A DNA stretch of 64,000 bases from Myxococcales bacterium (lineage in GTDB: Bacteria; Myxococcota; Myxococcia; Myxococcales; Myxococcaceae). Of the stretch, positions 49,599 through 63,570 are shown one piece after another. The notes under the pieces are model-generated. The model was not told the origin of the DNA and searched no databases. It saw only the letters and a list, made by a program, of their open reading frames with translations. The number at the start of each line of letters is the position of its first letter. Positions within the stretch are counted from its first letter, which is position 1. The DNA is taken from positions 1 to 64,000 of the forward strand of contig JADLDB010000160.1 in the NCBI GenBank assembly GCA_020846875.1, in the 5' to 3' direction. Made by a program: the position numbers and the translations under genes.

Positions 49599-50945
49599 TC
49601 AGGCAGCCGTTACCGGGACAAGAAGAACCGGCACCTTCGCCTTCTCACTCACCGCCTGCGCTACCGAGCCGAGGAGCGCTCGGGCTACCACGGAGCGGCT
49701 CCGCGCCCCGAGGACGATGAGGTCGGCGCCAATGCGGTCCGCCAGCGCGAGCACCTGGTCCGCGGGCGCCCCTTCGAGCACGTGCCTCTCCAGGCGCACC
49801 GGTGAAGCTACGTCCCTGGTGGCCGTGAGCCGCGAGAGCGCGTACCACGCCTGCTCACGGATCCGCCGAGCCGCTGCCTCGGTGGGGCCCGCAGGCGGGA
49901 TGACGTGAGCGAGGTGAACCGTGCCATTCTCCGCGACGATGCTGAGCGCCTGGGCCACCGCGCACTCACCGGCCTCCGAGAGGTCGGTCGCTACGAGGAC
50001 GGTGCGCGGTTCGCGCAGAGCTGGTCGAGGAGCAGCGCCCGCCGGTGGCACACACGCGACGCTCACCGGAGCGGCACGCAGCACCCCGCGCGCGACCGAG
50101 CCGTACCAGAGCTGCTCCAGCAGCGAGCTCGTCCGCTGGCCCACCACGACCAGGTCGAAGTCGCCCTGGTCCGCGAGGCTCGCGAGGTTGGCATCTGCGC
50201 TCCCGCGCGCAGCAACCACCCGGTGCCTGGCCCTCGGCTCGCTCGGGGGGGCGGTGCGCTGCAGCTCGCGCACGAGCGACTCCTCGGCCTCGGGCGACAG
50301 GCGGTGCTCGCTCTCGGGCGGCCTCAGGCCGAGGCGCTCGTGCACTTCTGCAGGTGAGGCGACCAGGACGACGTCGACCTCGACAGGTCCCGCCGCGCCC
50401 AGCGCGCTGGCGAAGGCACGGGCCGCCTGGGACGCCCGCCCCAGATCCGCGCCGACGAGCAGGCGCAGGGGCCGCTCTCCTCGCAACCACGACAACAGGC
50501 GGTCGGGGGCCCGAAGCGTCAGCGTCGGGACGGTGCTCTGCCGCGCCGTGCGCTCCGCCGTCGTACCGAGGAAGACTCGCCCGCCCGTGGAGCTGCCAAC
50601 GACGAGCGCCGTCGCCACCTCGAAGCGCGCGACGGAGGTGAGCGCATCCACGACGCTGCCGGCGGCGAGGTGGACCTGAACCTCCGCTCCCATGCTCGTG
50701 CGGAGCCGCTCGGCTTCCTCGTCCAGCTCTGCGCGAACGCGACCGAGGATGTGTTCCTCATCCGTGCCGAGGACGATTGGCGCGCGCGGGTCCTCGGACA
50801 CGTGCACGAGGCGCAGCGACGCCCTCAGACGCTTCGCCAGGAGCGCCGCCACGTCGGCCAGCGGCTGGCTGTTGGGTGTCAGCGTCGTGCCGAAGACAAT
50901 CGAGGTCGCCCTGCCGCCGGGTGAGGTGTGCTGGCCTGGACGCAC
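49599..50945 (-). CDS. Triple universal-stress-domain protein
   Basis: 448 residues with three USP-like domains (about 15-150, 155-300 and 305-448). Each ends with a (V/I)VxGxxxx...-type strand and a VPxLxxP-like closing strand. The ATP-binding G-2x-G-9x-G-S signature is incomplete: domain three has GARSRSVVARALLGS with the second Gly changed to Ser, and the first domain has GSSTGG spacing. Nucleotide binding is therefore uncertain. The GTG start at 50945 is set by AGGAGG eight bases upstream. USPs beside cation/H+ antiporters are known as possible regulators of transport under stress. Confidence 0.85.
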   Translation of the reverse strand: MRPGQHTSPGGRATSIVFGTTLTPNSQPLADVAALLAKRLRASLRLVHVSEDPRAPIVLGTDEEHILGRVRAELDEEAERLRTSMGAEVQVHLAAGSVVDALTSVARFEVATALVVGSSTGGRVFLGTTAERTARQSTVPTLTLRAPDRLLSWLRGERPLRLLVGADLGRASQAARAFASALGAAGPVEVDVVLVASPAEVHERLGLRPPESEHRLSPEAEESLVRELQRTAPPSEPRARHRVVAARGSADANLASLADQGDFDLVVVGQRTSSLLEQLWYGSVARGVLRAAPVSVACVPPAGAAPRPALREPRTVLVATDLSEAGECAVAQALSIVAENGTVHLAHVIPPAGPTEAAARRIREQAWYALSRLTATRDVASPVRLERHVLEGAPADQVLALADRIGADLIVLGARSRSVVARALLGSVAQAVSEKAKVPVLLVPVTAA

Positions 50946-53594: not shown

Positions 53595-53654
53595 AGCGCG
53601 CCGCTGGACGCCGGTCGCCGGGAATGAGACTGTGTGAGAGTGGTTACTATCGGC

Positions 53655-54431
53655 ATGTCTCTTTCGAGCGAAGAGCGGCTGTGGGCGGCGGCGCGGGCAG
53701 TGGCGCGGCGCCTCGGCCCCGGCTTCACGATGGAGGACATCGCCTTCGAGGCGGGCGTGTCCCGGGCGACGGCGTACCGGGTCCTCGAGTCTCAGCGCGT
53801 GGTGGTGGAGCGGCTGACCGCGGAAGGGGTGGTGAGCGCCGGCGACACCAGCTTGCGCGCGCGCGTCCTGGCGGCCACTCGCGAAGTCGTCTCTCGCCTC
53901 GGCTTCGACGGGCTCACGATCGCGGCTGTGGCGGAGCAGGCGGGCTGCGGTCAGGCCTCCGTCTACCGGCTGTTCGAGTCGCGCGAGGCGTTGCTCCGGG
54001 CCTGGGGCGACGGCTTGGCACCCCGACGGGCGGCGCGGGGGTTCGCGGTCGACGAGGACTCGCCGCTGGAGCCGGCGCTGGCCGGCCTGGGGCAGGAGCT
54101 GATCGAGGCGCTGCGCTCGGACGGCGGCGTGCTGTCCGCTGCGCTGGTCGCCTCCGGTGACTCGCGCCAGTGGATGCTCGCGGCCCGCCGGCGCCACCGG
54201 GGCACCATCGCGGCGCTGCGCGAGGCCTTCGCCGGACGGATCAAGCGCGGAGAGCTCGAGGGCGATCCCGCCGAGCTGGCGGTGGCCTTCTGTGGACTCC
54301 TCCTCACCTTCGGGTGGCTCGCGCCCGCTATTGGCGAGCCGGTGGACGAGGACGCAGCGGCGCTGGCCAGGCGCGTGGCCCGCCGCTTCCTCGCGGGTGT
54401 GCGGCCGCGCGGCCGCAAGGAGGCGAGATGA
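53655..54431 (+). CDS. TetR-type regulator with two DNA-binding domains
   Basis: 258 residues from the ATG at 53655; a GTG at 53634 would add MRVVTIG. Residues about 5-53 form one TetR-N helix-turn-helix (FTMEDIAFEAGVSRATAYRV), and about 60-108 form a second (LTIAAVAEQAGCGQASVYRL). Each has its own preceding helix and following recognition-helix context (VLESQ, LFESREALL). A ligand-binding-type helical region follows (about 115-258). Normal TetR proteins are about 200 residues with one HTH. The stop overlaps the ATG of the next gene (ATGA), so it probably controls the enzyme it is coupled to. Confidence 0.88.
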   Translation: MSLSSEERLWAAARAVARRLGPGFTMEDIAFEAGVSRATAYRVLESQRVVVERLTAEGVVSAGDTSLRARVLAATREVVSRLGFDGLTIAAVAEQAGCGQASVYRLFESREALLRAWGDGLAPRRAARGFAVDEDSPLEPALAGLGQELIEALRSDGGVLSAALVASGDSRQWMLAARRRHRGTIAALREAFAGRIKRGELEGDPAELAVAFCGLLLTFGWLAPAIGEPVDEDAAALARRVARRFLAGVRPRGRKEAR

Positions 54432-56854
54432 GAGGCCACGTTGAGCTCCCGGCGCCGGCGGAGCCCGGCCTGGGCGGGAAGGGCGAAGGCCTCTCGCGGC
54501 TGCTCGCGCTGGGGCTCCCGGTCCCACCGACGGTGGTGATCCCGGTGGAAGTCTTCCACGCCGCGCTCGCGGGCGCGACCAAGGACGACGAGGCGCGGTG
54601 GCTTTTGGAGGGGCCGCTGCCTGAAGGGGTGACGACGGCGATCGACGCGGCGCGGCGCCGGCTGGGTGAGCTGCCGCTGGCGGTGCGCTCCTCGGCGCTG
54701 GGCGAGGACGGGGGCGACAGCTCCTTCGCGGGCGCGCACGAGACGGTGCTGGACGTCCGCGGCGCGGAGGCCGTGCTGGCCGCGGTGCGCACCTGCTGGG
54801 CCTCGGCCTTCTCGGAGCGGGCGCTGAGCTACCGGCGGGAGCGGGCCGCAGGCCAGGCGCCGGCGATGGCGGTGGTGCTGCAGCGCTTCGTCGAGCCCGA
54901 CTTCGCAGGCGTCGCCTTCACCGTCGATCCGGTGAGCGGCGAGGCCGGCCCTGTCGTGGAGTACGTCGCGGGCCGCGGGGACGCGCTGGTGTCCGGCAGG
55001 GTGGCGCCGGTGCGCGCGAAGGCGGGCTCCGCGCCCTGGGTGGCCCGCGTGCTGCAACTGGTTGGCGAGGCCGAGGCGAAGCTGGGCGGCCCGCAGGATC
55101 TCGAGTGGGCGGTGCGCGACGGCGACGTCTTCCTGCTTCAGGCGCGCCCCATCACGACGCTGGCGAAGAAGCGGCGCACGCCGATCTGGGCCAACACCAA
55201 CGCGGCCGAGGTGATGCCCGGCGTGCTGACGCCGATGAGCGTCTCGGTGGCGAAGCTGTACGTGAAGGCGCTGCTCGGGCCCATGCTGTCGCCATTCCAA
55301 CTGGACAGCGAGCGCCTCGACGTCGTCGGCGTCATCGCCGGCCGCATGTACTTCAACCTGAGCGCCATCATGGCGTGGATGAGCTCGTTACCGGGAGTGC
55401 GCGCCGACGACGCGACGGTGTGGGCCCGCTTGCTGGGAGGATCTGGGGCGGAGCTCGCCGGGGCCATCGCCCGCCTGGAGCCGAACGAGCTGCCCACCGC
55501 CCTCGTCTCACCGTGGCGCGCGCTGCGGGGCGCCCTCGTCAGCATCAGCATGGTGCTGCGCCACCACCGGGCTGACGCCTCGCGAGCGCTGGCAGCGGTG
55601 GCGCGGGAAGCGGACACGCTCGAGGCCGTCGACGTCACGGCCCTGGGCGAGGCCGCGCTGGTGCTGCACCTGAAGGCAGCGCTCCACGGCGCCTTTGGGC
55701 CCGACGACACGGTGGTGGCCTGCGCGGGCGTGGGAATGGGCGCCCTCGAGGCCCTGCGGAAGCTCTGCGCCCGCTGGTTCGACGATCGGCAAGGCGCGCT
55801 CGCGGGACGGTTGATGACGGGCATCGGAGGCTTCGCCAGCGCCGACGCGGGCATGGCGATCGATCGACTCGCGATGCACGCGCGAGCGCTCGGCGTCTTC
55901 CTTCCGGAGGAGGAGGAGTGGCCCGCGGCCCAGGCCCGGCTGGAGCGGGACGAGGCGGGCCGTGCGTTCCTCGCCGAGTGGCGGGCGTTCCTGGTGAAGC
56001 ACGGGCACCACGCGAGAGGAGAGAGTGACGTCGCGGCGCCGCGCTGGCGCGAGGATCCCGGTCCGGTGCTGTCCGCGGTACGCGCGGCGCTGGCGCAGAC
56101 GGGGCCCGGGCTCGCGGCGCGAGAGCAGCTCCGCCAGCAGGAGCGGGCGGCGCTGATCGAAGAGCTCAGGTCGCGGCTGGGCCCGCTGCGGCGGGCGATC
56201 TTCCGGGCGGTGCTGCGGCGGGTGGACGCGGGGCTGACCGCGCGGGAGAACGGCCGCTCCGAGGCGGTGCGGCGGGTCGCGATCGCCCGGGCCAGCCTGC
56301 TGGAGCTCGGCCGCCGCTTCGTCTCCTGTGGCCGGCTCGGCAGCGCGAGCGACATTTTCTTTCTCTCCCTCGACGAGCTCGAGGGGACCCTGGACCTCGC
56401 GCCCCTCGTCGCGCGGCGGCAGGCCGAGCTCGCCCGCTGGAAGGCGGTGACGCCGCCGGGCGTGGTCATGGGTGAGTTCGATCCGCGCGACGCGATCGCC
56501 CCGCCGAAGCCCACCGGCAGCGCCACGATGACGGGCATCGCGGCCAGCCCGGGCGTGGTAGAGGGCATCGCGCGGGTGCTGGTGGAGCCGTCCGGCGGTG
56601 ACGCGATCCTCCCCGGGGAGATCCTCGTCGCGCCCTTCACCGATCCCGGGTGGACCCCGCTCTTCATCAACGCGGCCGGCCTGATCACCGACTACGGCGG
56701 GCTCTTGAGCCACGGCAGCGTCGTCGCGCGCGAGTACGGTTTGCCAGCGGTGGTCAACACCCAGGCGGCGACGGTCAGCATCCGCACCGGGCAGCGCGTG
56801 CGCGTCGACGGGAACCGCGGCGAGGTGGTGCTGCTCGACTCACCGGGCGCCTGA
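54428..56854 (+). CDS. Rifampicin-phosphotransferase-like / PEP-synthase-family kinase
   Basis: 808 residues. The N-terminal ATP-grasp domain has LPLAVRSSALGEDGGDSSFAG (parts), AGVAFTVDPVSGEAG and DLEWAVRDGDVFLLQARPIT (parts). A large helical middle region (about 255-700) differs from PEP synthase. A C-terminal phosphohistidine swivel domain contains GGLLSHGSVVAREYGLPAVV with His762. No PEP/pyruvate TIM barrel follows. This order (ATP-grasp, helical substrate domain, His domain) is that of rifampicin phosphotransferase, which adds ATP beta-phosphate to the drug. The substrate here is unproven. It is coupled to the upstream TetR gene and converges with a methyltransferase gene with a 15-bp overlap. 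Confidence 0.8.
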   Translation: MRGHVELPAPAEPGLGGKGEGLSRLLALGLPVPPTVVIPVEVFHAALAGATKDDEARWLLEGPLPEGVTTAIDAARRRLGELPLAVRSSALGEDGGDSSFAGAHETVLDVRGAEAVLAAVRTCWASAFSERALSYRRERAAGQAPAMAVVLQRFVEPDFAGVAFTVDPVSGEAGPVVEYVAGRGDALVSGRVAPVRAKAGSAPWVARVLQLVGEAEAKLGGPQDLEWAVRDGDVFLLQARPITTLAKKRRTPIWANTNAAEVMPGVLTPMSVSVAKLYVKALLGPMLSPFQLDSERLDVVGVIAGRMYFNLSAIMAWMSSLPGVRADDATVWARLLGGSGAELAGAIARLEPNELPTALVSPWRALRGALVSISMVLRHHRADASRALAAVAREADTLEAVDVTALGEAALVLHLKAALHGAFGPDDTVVACAGVGMGALEALRKLCARWFDDRQGALAGRLMTGIGGFASADAGMAIDRLAMHARALGVFLPEEEEWPAAQARLERDEAGRAFLAEWRAFLVKHGHHARGESDVAAPRWREDPGPVLSAVRAALAQTGPGLAAREQLRQQERAALIEELRSRLGPLRRAIFRAVLRRVDAGLTARENGRSEAVRRVAIARASLLELGRRFVSCGRLGSASDIFFLSLDELEGTLDLAPLVARRQAELARWKAVTPPGVVMGEFDPRDAIAPPKPTGSATMTGIAASPGVVEGIARVLVEPSGGDAILPGEILVAPFTDPGWTPLFINAAGLITDYGGLLSHGSVVAREYGLPAVVNTQAATVSIRTGQRVRVDGNRGEVVLLDSPGA

Positions 56855-57493
56855 CGGGCGCAGCTCCAGCCGGCGGGCCTTCTCCGCGCGCTTCGCCGAC
56901 AGCTCCACGCCCACCGCGTCCAGCCCGTACCGGTTGGCCACCGCCAGCATCGTCCCCACCCCGCAGAACGGATCGACCACCGTCCGGCACTTCGTGTACG
57001 AGAGGAGGAACTTCGCCACCGCCTCGCAGGCCTCCACGCCCATCGCGCGCGCCCACGGCAGCTCTCCCAGCCGGGGCAGCACGTCGGCGGTGGACTGGCC
57101 CTTCTCCAGCGACAGACCGTGGCTGAAGCACAGCAGGTGCGCGTACGCCGGCCGCCCGAAGGTCGTCACCCCTGCCGGCGCGCGGCACACCACCTTGTGC
57201 CAGAGGCAGTGGCTGCCCGCCGCCTCCGCCCCCGCGGCGACGAGGTAGCCCTTGTCTACCCACCGCCCGTCCCGCTTCACGTCCGTCTGGAAGAAGATCG
57301 CCACCGACTGCTCCTCCACCTGCCGGCAGCACAGCGCCGCCACTTCCTGGAACCAGCGGCGCCACCCGTCGAAGCCCAGGCCCGGCAGCTCGGACGAGTC
57401 TGGCAGCGAGGTGACGATGGCGTGACCCACCGGCAGCTCGTGTTCCTTCAGCCACGCGACGCCGTCGGAACAGTGGACGATGCGAGAAGCCAT
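56840..57493 (-). CDS. SAM-dependent methyltransferase, DPFCGVGT type
   Basis: 217 residues. A DPFCGVGTMLAVANRYG motif (about 175-191) and the following GVEL are motif I/II of amino- and RNA/DNA methyltransferases. The N-terminal region (GHAIVTSLPDSSELPG) contains a weak counterpart to the catalytic (D/N/S)PP(Y/F) loop, with LPDS in place of PPY. Trp/Cys-rich segments lie between. Target recognition is absent, so this may be an RNA methyltransferase rather than a restriction-modification enzyme. The ATG at 57493 is chosen over an upstream GTG at 57526. Confidence 0.72.
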   Translation of the reverse strand: MASRIVHCSDGVAWLKEHELPVGHAIVTSLPDSSELPGLGFDGWRRWFQEVAALCCRQVEEQSVAIFFQTDVKRDGRWVDKGYLVAAGAEAAGSHCLWHKVVCRAPAGVTTFGRPAYAHLLCFSHGLSLEKGQSTADVLPRLGELPWARAMGVEACEAVAKFLLSYTKCRTVVDPFCGVGTMLAVANRYGLDAVGVELSAKRAEKARRLELRPSGAR

Positions 57494-57603
57494 GCCGGCT
57501 AAGCCTCGCGCCTCGAGCCGGGCCACGCCACACTCACGAGGCGCGATCTCTTCCTTCCTCTGGGCTATGACGCCCGGGCACTCTTCTTGCGAGGGGGAAC
57601 ACC

Positions 57604-60600
57604 ATGCTTCGTCGACTGTGGCTCGTGGGACTCGTCCTGGGCGTCGGCGCGTGTACCTGCGGAGACAAGGGTAAGACGCCCACCGACGTCCTCACCGCGC
57701 CGGGCGAGCAGCGGCCGCTCGATCTCAAGCCGCTCCCCCAGGCGCCCAGCATCGGCGTGCAGCAGGATCAGCTGCCCGGTGCGGGGAAAGATCTCACCGT
57801 CGTGGTCGCGCGGCCGCAGGGCGCGCAGCTGGGCGAGGTGCGGCCCTCCGTCACCTTCTCCCTCCCTGTGAAATCGCTGGAGATGGTCGAAGCCCAGCGC
57901 GCCGGCGACGCGGCGAAGCCCTTCGCGAAGCTGGAGCCCGCCGTGGAGGGCGAGTGGCGCTGGCTGGGCTCCGCGTCGGCCGAGTTCGTGCCGAAGGGCC
58001 TGGTCCCATACTCCACGCAGTTCACCGTCACCGTGTTCAAGGGGCTGCGCGCGCTCGACGGCGCCGAGCTCAAGGAGGACTACGTGTTCTCCTTCTCCAC
58101 CCCCAAGCTGGAGCTGCAGGACGTCTCCCCCGCGCAAGGGCACCGCTGGCTCACCCCGGACGCCACCATCTCGCTGCTCTTCAACCAGCCGGTGGACAGG
58201 GCCGAGCTGGAGAAGGCCACCAAGCTGACCGCCAACGGCGCGGCGGTGGCCCTCAAGGTGACGAAGGAGATCTCCATCCAGGACGAGCGCCGGGCGCAGA
58301 TCGAAGAGGCGCGCAAGCAGGGCCGGAGCTACCAGGCGCTGTCCGACGACGACCGCGGCTACCGCAACAAGCAGACCCGCTACACGCTCACCCCGTCCCA
58401 GCCGCTGCCGCTCAACGCCGCCCTGTACCTGACGCTCGACGCTTCGCTCCACGGCAAGGAAGGCCCGCTCCCCTGGAGCGCCGGCCAGACGGTGGAGTTC
58501 CGCACCTACGGCCCCTTCACCCTCGACTCTGCGCGCTTCTGCCAGGACTACGAGTGCCCGTACGGCCCGCTGGTGATCTTCACCTCCAACATGGCCGAGC
58601 TGGCCACCTTGAAGGAGCGCCTCACCATCAAGCCGGCGGTGGAGCTGGACTGGGACAGCGCCGAGGCCTGGGCCCCGCACTCCCAGTGGGAGATAGATCG
58701 CAGCCCGTACGTCTCCATCCCCGGGAAGTTCAAGCCCGGCACCCAATATGCGGTGAAGATCCGCAACGGCGCCGCGGACGTCTTCAAGCAGGCCGACGCG
58801 AAGGGCCTCGACGCGACGCTGCGCACCGATGACTTGCGCCCCGCGCTGGTGATCGGTGGTGGCCTGGGGATGATCGAAGCCTCGAAGGAGGCGCCGCGCC
58901 TGCCGGTGGAGGTGTCCAACCTGAACACCCTCAAGGTGCGGATGTGGAAGCTGTCCGTGCCCGAGCTGGTGAAGGGCCTGTCCCACCTCAACTACGACGA
59001 CAGCCCGATCTTCACCCGCGCGCCCGACTTCAGCGAGGCCGAGGCGCTCAAGTACCCGAGGAACCTCGCGCGCGTGCACCCGCTGGAGCTGCGCAAGGTG
59101 CTGGGCGCCGAGGCCCTCACCGGCGTGGCGCTCGTCTCCGTCGACTCGCCGCAGCTCGAGTACCACCCGAAGGACGGCTACCGGCAGTTGGTGCAGGTGA
59201 CCGACCTCGCCGCGCACATCAAGATCGGCCCCAAGTCTTCGCTGGTGTGGGTGACGCGCCTGTCCGACGGCAAGCCGGTCGCCGACGCCGACGTCACCGT
59301 CTACGACGAGTCCGCCAACGCCGCGTGGACCGGGAAGACCAACGCCGAAGGCTTCGCCGACGCCCCCGGCTCCGTGGCGATGAAGCTCAAGAGCGTCCGC
59401 TACGACTGGGAGTACCCCTTCGCGCTGGTGGTGGCCCAGAAGGACGGCGATCTGTCCGCCACCGCCAACACCTGGTCCTCCGGCGTGGAGGCCTACGAGT
59501 TCGGCCTCTCCCAGGGCTGGGAAGGAGAGACCCCCGAGAGCACCGGCTTCCTCTTCACCGATCGCGGCATCTACCGCCCCGGCGACGAGGTCTTCATCAA
59601 GGGCGTGGTGCGCTACCGGACCCTCGGAGAGCTGCGCTCGCCGGCCGCAGGCAGCCTGGTCACCGTGGCCGTCAGCGACTCGCGCGGCGAGAAGGTGAAG
59701 GCCGAGAACGTGAAGGTGACGAAGTTCGGCACCTTCTCCACGAAGGTCACCATCCCCAAGGAGGCGCCCACCGGCTACTTCCGCGTGGAGGCCAGGGGCA
59801 GCGCGCCCGGCGGCAACGTGGAGACGTCGAGCAGCTTCCGCGTTGAGGAGTACCGCGCGCCCCAGTTCCGCGTGGACGTGGAGACCCCGAAGAAGTCGCT
59901 GGTGGCCGGGGACGTCTTCGAGGGCAGCGTGTTCGCCCGCTACCTCTTCGGCGGCGCGATGAATGACGCGCAGGTGAAGTGGAGCGCCCACAAGTCCTCC
60001 ACCAGCTTCCACGCGGAGATCGCCCCCGACTTCACCTTCTCTCAGGAGACCTGGTGGTGGGACGACAACCACCCGGAGGACGCCTCGGGCTTCTTCGCCA
60101 GCGGCGAGGGCCGGGTGGACAGCAAGGGCGCCTTCGCGGTGAAGGCCGGCACCACCGACGCGCCGGGTGAGAAGCCGTACGAGTACACCCTGGAGGCCGA
60201 GGTGACCGACGTGAACAGGCAGACCGTCGCCGGCCGCGCCTCCGTCACCGTGCACCCCGGCCAGTATTACGTGGGCCTGCGCAGCCCGTCCTACTTCATG
60301 TCCGTCGGCAACGAGTACAACCTGGAGACGCAGGTGGTGGACACCGCCGGCCAGCGCGCGAAGGGCCGAGCGCTCACCGTCACCGTCACCAGCCGCACCT
60401 GGAAGTCGGTGAAGAAGAAGGACGCCTCGGGCGGCTTCTCCACCGTCAGCGAGCCGGTGGAGCTCGAGGTGAAGAAGTGCGCGCTCACCAGCGCCGACGC
60501 GGTGGTGCCCTGCGCCTTCAAGCCCGACAAGGCCGGCTTCTACATCGTCCGCGGCACGGTGAAGGACGACCAGGGCCGCACCCACTCCTCGTCGCTGGGC

Positions 60601-63570
60601 GTGTACGCCACCGGCAGCGACTGGGTGGCCTGGCAGCGCACCGACACCGATCGCGTGGAGCTGATCACCGACAAGACCACCTACGACGTGGGCGACGTGG
60701 CGAAGGTGTTGATCAAGTCCCCGTACCCGGAGGCGAAGGCGATGGTGACGGTGGAGCGCGAGGGGGTGCTGTCGCGGCGCCTCGTCGATCTCAAGGGCAG
60801 CGTGGTGACGGTGGACGTGCCGATCACCGAGGACATGGTGCCCAACGTCTTCGCCGGCGTGCTGATCATGCGGCCCCGCGTGGCCCAGGGCGGCGTGGAG
60901 ACCGGCGACGATCCCGGCCGCCCCAACGCGCGCATCGGCCTGGTGAAGCTGGGCGTGGAGCGGAAGACCAAGCGCCTCGCCGTGACTGTCAAGACGGACA
61001 AGATGGACTACCAGCCGCGCGACACCGTCAACGTCTCCATCGACGTGAAGGACGCCGCGGGCAAGCCGGCCTCGGGCGAGGTGACGCTGTACGTGGTGGA
61101 CGAGGCGGTGCTGCGGCTGACCGGCTACCAGACGCCCGATCCGATCGCCGCCATCTTCCCCGAGCGGCCGCTGTCGGTGCGCCTGGGCGAGCCGCTCCTG
61201 CACCTGGTGCGCAAGAAGAGCTACGGCGAGAAGGGCGAGCCGTCGGGCGGCGGCGGCGGGCGAGGGGAGGGCGGCGGCTTCCGCAGCGACTTCAAGACCA
61301 CCGTCCTCTTCAACCCCACACTGGAGCTCGCCGACGGCGCCGCGAAGACGTCCTTCAAGCTGCCCGACAACCTCACCACCTTCCGGCTGATGGCGGTGGT
61401 GATCACCCAGAGCGATCGCTTCGGCTCGGGCGAGTCCTCCATTCAGGTGAACATGCCGGTGATGGCCCTTCCGGCGCTGCCCCGCTTCGCGCGCGTGGGC
61501 GACGCCTTCGAGGCCGGCGTGGTGGTCCACAAGCACGGCGCGGCGGCCGGCGACGTGACGGTGACGGCGGAGGTGCAGGGCGGCGCGAGCCTGACCGGGC
61601 CTGCCTCGCAGACGGTGCCGGTGGCGGACGGCGCGCCGAAGGAGGTGCGCTTCGCCTTCAAGGCCCTGGCCCCGGGCAAGGCCACCTTCCGCTTCAAGGC
61701 CACCGCGGGCGGCGCGTCCGACGGCGTGGAGGAGAAGATCCCCCTGGAGCTGCCGGTGGAATTGGACGCGGTCGCCACCTACGGAGACACCACCGGCGAG
61801 CGCGTGGAGGGGATCGTCCCGCCGAAGGACGTCTACGAGGAACAAGGCGGCCTGACGGTGTCGATGGCGTCGACGTCGCTGGGCGGCTTCGACCAGGGCT
61901 TCCAGCAGTTGATTGAGTACCCGTACGGGTGCCTCGAGCAGCAGGCCTCCCGGCTGGTGCCCTTCATCGCGCTGCGGGAGATCGCCGGGCAGTTCGGCGT
62001 GCCCTGGCCCGGGCCGGACGCGAAGAAGCAGGCGAAGGAGAACGAAGCCAACGCCTGGCTCGACACCTACCTGTTCCCCACGCTGGACGTGTCCGACAAG
62101 AAGCACCCCGACGAGGTGATCAACTCCACCGTGAAGTCGATCCTCGCCCTGCAGGACGGCGACGGCAGCTTCCGCTACTGGCCGTCGTCGTGGTGCGCGT
62201 CCTCGTGGACCAGCGCCTACGCCACCCTGACCCTGGCCCGCGCGAAGGAGGTCGGCTTCACCGTGCCCGCCGATCGCCTGGCCCGTGCGGAGGGCTTCCT
62301 CAACAAGGTGGTGGGCGGCTCCTGCCACCCGTGCGAGCTCTGGTGCGACGACGAGACGCGCGTCTTCGCCGCCTACGTGCTGGCGCGCATGCAGAAGCCG
62401 AAGGCGTCCAGCTACGCCGAGTTCTACGCCCGGCGGGAGAAGCTCTCGCTGTTCGGCCGCGCGCTCCTGGCCAACGCGATGTTCGTCGGGGGAGGCGACC
62501 GCGCCGACGCCAAGGCGCTGCTCCAGGAACTCCTCAACTTCGCCAAGGAGTCGCCCAGGGGCGTGCACCTGGAAGAGGTCAACTCGAGGACCTACGCCAC
62601 GTACTTCCAGTCGGACACGCGCACCACCGGCGTGGTGCTGCAGGCGCTCACCGACATCTCGCCCGATCACCCGTACGTGGGGAAGATGACGAAGTACCTC
62701 ACCGGCGTGCGGCAAGGCGACGGGCAGTGGCGCTCCACCCAGGAAGCGGCCTTCTCGCTGATGGCGCTCACCGAGGTGCTGCGCACCAAGGAGAGGGAGA
62801 CGCCGGACTTCAAGGCCTCGGTAGCGATGGGCGCCGCTCCGCTGCTGGAGGAAGCCTTCAAGGGCCGCTCGATGGTGACGAAGACGAAGGCCCTTCCGAT
62901 GAAGGAGTTGCTGTCGAAGGCGGCCGGCGCGGAGCAGAAGCTGATCTTCAAGAAAGAGGGAACGGGCGTCCTCTACTACTCCGCGCTGCTCAAGTACGCG
63001 CCGAAGCAGTTGCCCACGTCGTCTCTCGACAACGGGCTCTTCGTGCAGCGCTGGTTCGAGCCGTACGCGGGCGGCGGGCAGACGACGAAGTTCTACGCGG
63101 GCGACCTGGTGCGAATCCGCGTGCGCGTGGCGACCAACCAGGAGCGCCACTGGGCCGCTTTCGAGGTGCCGCTGCCGGCGGGCCTGGAGCCGGTGGACAC
63201 CTCGCTGGCCACCACCGCGAAGCTGACCCGCGCGCCGGACGAAGAGGAGCGGGACGTGGGCTACGAGGACGAGGGGTACGAGGACGGCTACGAGGGCTCC
63301 GCGGAGGGGGGCGACTTCGACGATCCCTGGCGCTACTCCTTCTGGACGCCCTTCAACCACACCGAGATGCGCGACAGCCGGGTGGTGGTGTTCGCGGATC
63401 ACCTCCCGCCGGGGGTGCACGTCACCAGCTTCGTGGCCCGTGCCACCACGCCGGGCACCTACATCCTCAAGCCGGCGAAGGGAGAGCTCATGTACGAGCC
63501 CGAGGTGTGGGGGCGCAGCGAGGGTGGCAGCTTCGAAGTCGTCCTGCCGCAGACGGTCAGCCAGAAGTGA
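57604..63570 (+). CDS. Bacterial alpha-2-macroglobulin lipoprotein
   Basis: 1,988 residues. A lipobox GVGAC anchors the N terminus. MG-type beta-sandwich domains fill the first about 1,150 residues (for example RGIYRPGDEVFIKGVVRY near 655). The thioester motif is intact: GCLEQ with Cys1443 and Gln1446 (codons at 61930-61941). An alpha/alpha-toroid TED follows (GDGSFRYWPSS, TTGVVLQALTDI) and a receptor-type domain closes the chain (HLPPGVHVTSFVARATTPGTY). It traps proteases in the periplasm, as in E. coli YfhM. A GAGGGGG site precedes the ATG. pbpC follows after 65 bp, the usual pairing. Confidence 0.96.
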   Translation: MLRRLWLVGLVLGVGACTCGDKGKTPTDVLTAPGEQRPLDLKPLPQAPSIGVQQDQLPGAGKDLTVVVARPQGAQLGEVRPSVTFSLPVKSLEMVEAQRAGDAAKPFAKLEPAVEGEWRWLGSASAEFVPKGLVPYSTQFTVTVFKGLRALDGAELKEDYVFSFSTPKLELQDVSPAQGHRWLTPDATISLLFNQPVDRAELEKATKLTANGAAVALKVTKEISIQDERRAQIEEARKQGRSYQALSDDDRGYRNKQTRYTLTPSQPLPLNAALYLTLDASLHGKEGPLPWSAGQTVEFRTYGPFTLDSARFCQDYECPYGPLVIFTSNMAELATLKERLTIKPAVELDWDSAEAWAPHSQWEIDRSPYVSIPGKFKPGTQYAVKIRNGAADVFKQADAKGLDATLRTDDLRPALVIGGGLGMIEASKEAPRLPVEVSNLNTLKVRMWKLSVPELVKGLSHLNYDDSPIFTRAPDFSEAEALKYPRNLARVHPLELRKVLGAEALTGVALVSVDSPQLEYHPKDGYRQLVQVTDLAAHIKIGPKSSLVWVTRLSDGKPVADADVTVYDESANAAWTGKTNAEGFADAPGSVAMKLKSVRYDWEYPFALVVAQKDGDLSATANTWSSGVEAYEFGLSQGWEGETPESTGFLFTDRGIYRPGDEVFIKGVVRYRTLGELRSPAAGSLVTVAVSDSRGEKVKAENVKVTKFGTFSTKVTIPKEAPTGYFRVEARGSAPGGNVETSSSFRVEEYRAPQFRVDVETPKKSLVAGDVFEGSVFARYLFGGAMNDAQVKWSAHKSSTSFHAEIAPDFTFSQETWWWDDNHPEDASGFFASGEGRVDSKGAFAVKAGTTDAPGEKPYEYTLEAEVTDVNRQTVAGRASVTVHPGQYYVGLRSPSYFMSVGNEYNLETQVVDTAGQRAKGRALTVTVTSRTWKSVKKKDASGGFSTVSEPVELEVKKCALTSADAVVPCAFKPDKAGFYIVRGTVKDDQGRTHSSSLGVYATGSDWVAWQRTDTDRVELITDKTTYDVGDVAKVLIKSPYPEAKAMVTVEREGVLSRRLVDLKGSVVTVDVPITEDMVPNVFAGVLIMRPRVAQGGVETGDDPGRPNARIGLVKLGVERKTKRLAVTVKTDKMDYQPRDTVNVSIDVKDAAGKPASGEVTLYVVDEAVLRLTGYQTPDPIAAIFPERPLSVRLGEPLLHLVRKKSYGEKGEPSGGGGGRGEGGGFRSDFKTTVLFNPTLELADGAAKTSFKLPDNLTTFRLMAVVITQSDRFGSGESSIQVNMPVMALPALPRFARVGDAFEAGVVVHKHGAAAGDVTVTAEVQGGASLTGPASQTVPVADGAPKEVRFAFKALAPGKATFRFKATAGGASDGVEEKIPLELPVELDAVATYGDTTGERVEGIVPPKDVYEEQGGLTVSMASTSLGGFDQGFQQLIEYPYGCLEQQASRLVPFIALREIAGQFGVPWPGPDAKKQAKENEANAWLDTYLFPTLDVSDKKHPDEVINSTVKSILALQDGDGSFRYWPSSWCASSWTSAYATLTLARAKEVGFTVPADRLARAEGFLNKVVGGSCHPCELWCDDETRVFAAYVLARMQKPKASSYAEFYARREKLSLFGRALLANAMFVGGGDRADAKALLQELLNFAKESPRGVHLEEVNSRTYATYFQSDTRTTGVVLQALTDISPDHPYVGKMTKYLTGVRQGDGQWRSTQEAAFSLMALTEVLRTKERETPDFKASVAMGAAPLLEEAFKGRSMVTKTKALPMKELLSKAAGAEQKLIFKKEGTGVLYYSALLKYAPKQLPTSSLDNGLFVQRWFEPYAGGGQTTKFYAGDLVRIRVRVATNQERHWAAFEVPLPAGLEPVDTSLATTAKLTRAPDEEERDVGYEDEGYEDGYEGSAEGGDFDDPWRYSFWTPFNHTEMRDSRVVVFADHLPPGVHVTSFVARATTPGTYILKPAKGELMYEPEVWGRSEGGSFEVVLPQTVSQK

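Follow-up and report, generated by a model that had tools for sequence, protein, structure and literature searches.

A TetR-family regulator with two DNA-binding domains and its coupled rifampicin-phosphotransferase-like enzyme in a Myxococcales bacterium

We describe a two-gene unit in a soil-dwelling Myxococcales bacterium, a relative of Archangium, in which a TetR-family regulator with two DNA-binding domains in one chain is followed, with a four-nucleotide overlap, by an enzyme that has the domain order of the rifampicin phosphotransferases (RPHs). The unit lies in a stretch of 64,000 nucleotides, which we call the window. The architecture of the two proteins, their conservation, the coupling of the genes, an associated DNA motif and the catalytic residues of the enzyme were computed here. 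We narrowly favor the reading that the pair is an autoregulated, ligand-inducible modification unit, in which a four-headed repressor dimer would occupy four half-sites.

The regulator gene (53655..54431, forward strand; 258 amino acids plus stop) runs from an ATG at 53655 to a TGA at 54429-54431. The original prediction, that one chain holds two complete TetR-N helix-turn-helix (HTH) units, is borne out by the profile search: the Pfam domain TetR_N is found twice, and the protein as a whole scores 59.6 bits against the curated cut-off of 24, as expected of a TetR-family member. Domain 2 (residues 67-119; 53853..54011, forward strand) reaches 44.5 bits, while domain 1 (residues 5-56; 53667..53822, forward strand) reaches 22.8-23.3 bits, less than 1.5 bits under the cut-off. 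When the HTH1 fragments of nine relatives are scored alone, they range from 21.8 to 50.4 bits; the cut-off is passed by eight of the nine (25-50 bits). An AlphaFold model based on a 15-sequence alignment (mean pLDDT 87; DNA-binding domains mostly around 90) contains two full four-helix domains at these positions, followed by a single ligand-binding and dimerization domain (residues 122-249; 54018..54401, forward strand) that is all-helical, as in the TetR family. The PDB matches listed for this model by Foldseek are all ordinary TetR proteins, about 175-203 residues. One DNA-binding domain per chain is the typical TetR plan rather than a strict requirement, and the regulator departs from it with two, a feature conserved in its relatives.

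To define the extent of this family, a profile of eight members was searched against 195 genomes of the phylum. At E <= 1e-47, 15 proteins match the full profile, or both DNA-binding domains where a contig end cuts the copy; the best ordinary TetR proteins in the same search reach 1e-25, and most of their matches start around profile position 60. By this comparison the regulator is part of a discrete subfamily whose 15 members are set well apart from ordinary TetRs. Among the matches listed in a collection scan, the named relatives include Archangium lansinium, Polyangia MAGs and a Caldilineaceae MAG. Within the 15-member family the majority fraction is 0.75 for residues 26-44, compared with 0.68 in the corresponding part of domain 2 and 0.48 across the ligand domain. 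The best conserved stretch of all is the recognition helix of domain 1 (regulator residues 37-44; conserved positions G34, S36, R37, A38, L40, Y41 and R42), which is kept even in member G107, where most of the remaining domain has been lost. We considered HTH1 as a decayed copy and dropped the idea, since HTH1 is better conserved than HTH2. Because eight of nine relatives pass the cut-off, the recognition helix is the best conserved stretch and the model shows a full domain, the combined profile, conservation and modeling evidence indicates that HTH1 is a genuine DNA-binding domain despite its score.

More distant double-domain regulators, matching the profile over its full length (E 2e-35), occur in Chloroflexota and Dormibacterota; a sampled phylum search found the type in 15 of 201 genomes. 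Their genes overlap a gene for an ABC ATPase, which is followed by an ABC-2 permease, and these regulators presumably control the ABC-2 exporters. A literature search, mostly without subscription journals, found no TetR protein with tandem DNA-binding domains except Mce3R, a fusion of whole TetR-family regulators (TFRs).

The enzyme gene (54428..56854, forward strand; 808 amino acids plus stop) begins within the regulator stop codon in an ATGA overlap of 4 nucleotides (54428..54431, forward strand) that would allow translational coupling; the overlap and the enzyme length are as originally predicted. In nearly all 15 members the regulator lies directly upstream of the same type of enzyme, and in the members examined this downstream gene is RPH-like, usually with an ATGA overlap or nearly so; G107 is an exception in its spacing. 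In two copies, L107 and L106 (G106 and G105), the neighboring dikinase gene does not stay in one reading frame, which may reflect a pseudogene or an assembly error. Pairwise distances between regulators and between enzymes are correlated (Mantel r 0.91 for 13 pairs, all pairs used); with one pair per genus the correlation is r = 0.52 (p = 0.006). The enzymes of the other members fall into two groups, one near the window enzyme and the other made up of longer proteins more similar to RPH, which score 737-797 bits with the RPH model.

The two genes stand among unrelated neighbors. Upstream, on the reverse strand, a protein with three tandem universal stress protein domains is encoded at 49599-50945. 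Downstream, a convergent gene (56840-57526, reverse strand), whose product has a C-terminal match to DNA methylase (N6_N4_Mtase), overlaps with its end the last 15 nucleotides of the dikinase gene, and a bacterial alpha-2-macroglobulin of 1988 residues follows at 57604-63570 (forward strand). We read the pair as a putative inducible unit for detoxification or modification. Disposal of a small molecule that is toxic or unwanted is favored because regulators of this type pair either with an exporter or with a modifying enzyme, and because the unit is isolated among unrelated neighbors. The unit had been proposed to modify an antibiotic or to phosphorylate a metabolite; it may indeed act on an antibiotic, with rifamycin an unlikely substrate.

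A different purpose is possible, although we consider it unlikely: the enzyme may be biosynthetic or catabolic, comparable to the prodigiosin ligases PigC and RedH or to phenol-type kinases such as HpeHI, with the regulator sensing a metabolite and the unit having no role in defense. The enzyme scores 381.6 bits for the NCBIfam model of RedH and 353.7 bits for that of PigC, as good as its 308.5 bits for RPH, and far below the PigC/RedH equivalog cut-offs of 1300/1350 bits; PRK06241.2-2 gives 401 bits, again far below its cut-off. HpeHI, a two-component phenolic dikinase that is RPH-like, can start aromatic breakdown (PMC12167813). It and phenylphosphate synthase belong to the same chemistry family, converting ATP to AMP via a swiveling histidine, but their domains are split over two chains and their genes lie in aromatic catabolism operons (PMC12167813). 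Against such a role for the window enzyme, the two-gene unit has no biosynthetic or catabolic genes next to it, and the apparent control of exporters by the sister regulators favors the handling of xenobiotics.

The predicted operator of the unit (53625..53662) has the form TGAGAC-N26-GTCTCT and overlaps the regulator start codon; it lies in the same place in relatives. Its outer half-sites are TGAGAC on the left (53625..53630, forward strand) and AGAGAC on the right (53657..53662, reverse strand; GTCTCT on the forward strand, within regulator codons 1-3). An inner half-site TGAGAG lies 10 bp inward on the left (53635..53640, forward strand), and a weak one, CGATAG, on the right (53647..53652, reverse strand), so that only the outer arms are strong and clearly symmetrical in the window. 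Scored over 19 pairs, the window operator matches at 10/19 (p 0.65), no better than shuffles; scoring of the whole palindrome is insensitive for this site because only the arms are conserved.

The 15 upstream regions align on TGAGAC at about -29 and on GTCTC across the start codon. Eight of the 15 have an exact GAGAC-N23-27-GTCTC at -27 to -29, and a ninth, G106, is one base off, giving a palindrome of 36-38 bp over the start codon in 9/15. In the five Archangium-genus copies other than G106 the site is 37 bp long and displaced upstream by about 15 bp. Nannocystis follows this plan too, with TGAAAC as its arms and an overall length of 37 bp, and in one of the 15 members, G182, the motif is absent. 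In nine non-Archangium members, conservation within the site is highest in the outer arms. In the Archangium-genus copies L061, L062, L104, L105 and L106 a second, shorter palindrome (e.g., TGAGAGAGACATCTCTCA) lies upstream as well as the 37 bp one. Two further patterns are seen. TGAGA recurs at +10 bp within each half, with a mean of 2.29 of 5 matches versus 1.49 expected; at z 4.1 this offset ranks first of the 12 compared, the next reaching 2.1. In addition, of 11 genes that start Met-Ser, 10 use TCT for this serine, a codon that accounts for 3.7% of the serines in these genes (p~5e-14; the operator p-values are descriptive, the pattern having been found on the tested loci, which share ancestry, and three of 14 operators come from one genus). 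The right arm across the start codon would force this rare second codon, and the bias therefore points to a constraint on the DNA, not on the protein. In the window genome (7.06 Mb), TGAGAC-N23-27-GTCTC has a single forward-strand match, at the regulator start; a reversed control motif also occurs once, so that a single occurrence is about what chance would give, and the evidence lies in the position. The looser GAGAC-N23-27-GTCTC gives tens of matches per genome in most of 20 genomes and defines no regulon. The earlier guesses of self-regulation and of an operator with four half-sites thus gain support from the conserved palindrome, the +10 bp repeats and the TCT bias.

The Chloroflexota double-HTH relatives also have palindromes of ~35 bp. 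In the Chloroflexota and Dormibacterota copies L120, L122-L125, L127-L129, L131, L134, L137 and L148, a near-symmetrical site of this length (e.g., GATACTTGACGAGACGNGAYGTCTTGTCTAGTATC) contains TTGACG-N17-TAGTAT and stands immediately ahead of the start codon, a position that suggests leaderless messages.

How might two DNA-binding domains per chain be used? The inner half-sites are 11-12 bp apart, which is the span of a normal TetR dimer; the outer ones lie one turn beyond on each side, and their separation of about 30 bp exceeds the reach of a single ordinary dimer. The N-terminal arms of TetR proteins such as SimR and MSMEG_3765 are known to touch flanking DNA. The spacing, together with an extra N-terminal domain on the outward flank, leads us to infer four heads on four half-sites; repression, induction, reaction and purpose are likewise proposals. 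The regulator would dimerize via its single ligand domain, bringing four DNA-binding domains into the dimer. Domain 2 of each chain would read the inner half-site of the 36-38 bp palindrome, and domain 1, on the outward-facing N-terminus, the second half-site copy, which lies one helical turn farther from the center, in the plan TGAGAC-N4-TGA...TCA-N4-GTCTCA. The bound site would cover the promoter region and the start codon, blocking transcription of both genes, until a small molecule in the ligand pocket makes the repressor leave and the coupled enzyme can be produced. The enzyme would then move the beta-phosphate of ATP via His762 onto a small-molecule hydroxyl, with AMP, phosphate and the phosphorylated compound as products. 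The most likely inducer would be the enzyme substrate itself or a compound related to it, which the reaction may detoxify or trap.

Alternatively, domain 1 may not be a specific DNA binder at all but a structural cap or remnant, with the palindrome bound by two ordinary-style dimers via domain 2, or by one dimer with flank contacts. QacR, for example, binds as two dimers. The single-HTH TetR protein MSMEG_3765 is reported on a palindrome of 36 bp (PMC10663510), so operator length alone is no proof of four heads. The strength of the inner palindrome on its own in Archangium, the second inner-type site upstream there, and the window HTH1 score slightly below the Pfam cut-off all point the same way. 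We nevertheless find this explanation rather doubtful: the strong conservation of the domain 1 recognition helix, even in G107, and that of the outer arms count against it.

It is improbable that the TGAGAC/GTCTCA element is a promoter or the site of another factor instead of the operator of the regulator. The element does sit where the promoter of a leaderless or short-leader message would, and TGAGAC by inspection resembles a shifted -35 hexamer; a promoter scan found no consensus sigma-70 promoter. Such a reading leaves unexplained the right arm within the coding sequence, the symmetry and the TCT codon bias, and the motif is absent near all 41 ordinary TetR loci (41 kb) and near all four RPH-like genes without this regulator.

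The enzyme is probably a small-molecule dikinase and not an RPH, judging from its alignment and profile scores. A Pfam scan identifies PPDK_N (ATP-grasp; 54470..55156, forward strand) and PEP-utilisers, the swiveling phosphohistidine domain (56525..56836, forward strand), with a helical substrate-binding region between them (55190..56497, forward strand). No PEP/pyruvate barrel domain is found by the scan, and PEP synthase was rejected as an identity on that ground: PEP synthase and pyruvate phosphate dikinase share the ATP-grasp and phosphohistidine domains with the window enzyme but differ in having the barrel. The model (pLDDT 78, of moderate confidence) has only RPH crystal structures as full-length matches in the fold search, and the domain composition proposed at the outset is thus confirmed. 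The RPH residues K22, R117, T136, E297, Q309, R311, R666, E667 and H825 are all present, as K18, R87, T106, E226, Q238 and R240 in the ATP-grasp domain, the catalytic R606 and E607 in the helical region, and H762 (codon 56711-56713) in the swiveling domain; RPH Lys670 is Arg610. The likeness to RPH thus holds for domain order and catalytic residues but does not extend to family membership. Identity to RPH-Lm is 27.3%, while the validated clade shows >42% (PMC4844700), the score for the NCBIfam RPH model lies well under the cut-off of 999 bits, and the ATP-grasp region is shorter. The rifampicin contacts Gln336, Gln337, Tyr351, Pro356, Phe479 and Met673 are replaced by A, E, A, K, a gap and A, and T354 is not kept either. 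Stogios et al. described distant clades that have the Arg-Glu-Lys of block 9 but lack the pocket as phosphotransferases for other substrates, and a distant clade member that they tested conferred no resistance (PMC4844700); the window enzyme fits this description. It falls in a dikinase class that is large and mostly without known substrates (PMC4844700). We therefore rejected a true rifamycin phosphotransferase, and a rifampicin resistance unit is very improbable despite the shared fold and catalytic set and the higher RPH scores of the longer enzymes in relatives.

Compared with ordinary TetR repressors (TetR, QacR, RutR, MexL), the regulator shares the fold of domain 2 plus ligand domain, the position beside the gene that it would control and a palindromic operator at its own promoter. 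It differs in the extra complete N-terminal DNA-binding domain and in a predicted operator of 36-38 bp with outer arms, placed over the start codon. Mce3R, a double TFR, likewise has two HTHs per chain; it consists of two whole TFRs fused (406 amino acids) and binds as an asymmetric pseudo-dimer to a 25 bp non-palindromic site (PMC11667970). The window regulator, in contrast, doubles the DNA-binding domain only, has one ligand domain in 258 amino acids where a Mce3R-type protein has two complete TFRs in ~400, and its site is palindromic. It is tempting to propose, at a little under an even chance, that these proteins are a branch of TetR repressors not described before, present in Myxococcota, Chloroflexota and Dormibacterota. 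Such a branch would combine a duplicated DNA-binding domain, one dimer bound to four half-sites on one DNA face over 36-38 bp, and an operator within its own first codons, and its partner would be either a small-molecule dikinase or an ABC exporter, the two being interchangeable.

Few bacterial switches have been studied as well as the TetR repressors, which are also a standard tool of synthetic biology. To our knowledge, the plans described so far have one head per chain or, in Mce3R, fuse two whole repressors. A natural tandem-head TetR would give a longer, more specific operator and would test how evolution adds DNA-binding domains. The coupled repressor may also offer a handle on the substrate of the dikinase, because the compound that releases it would be the best candidate substrate.
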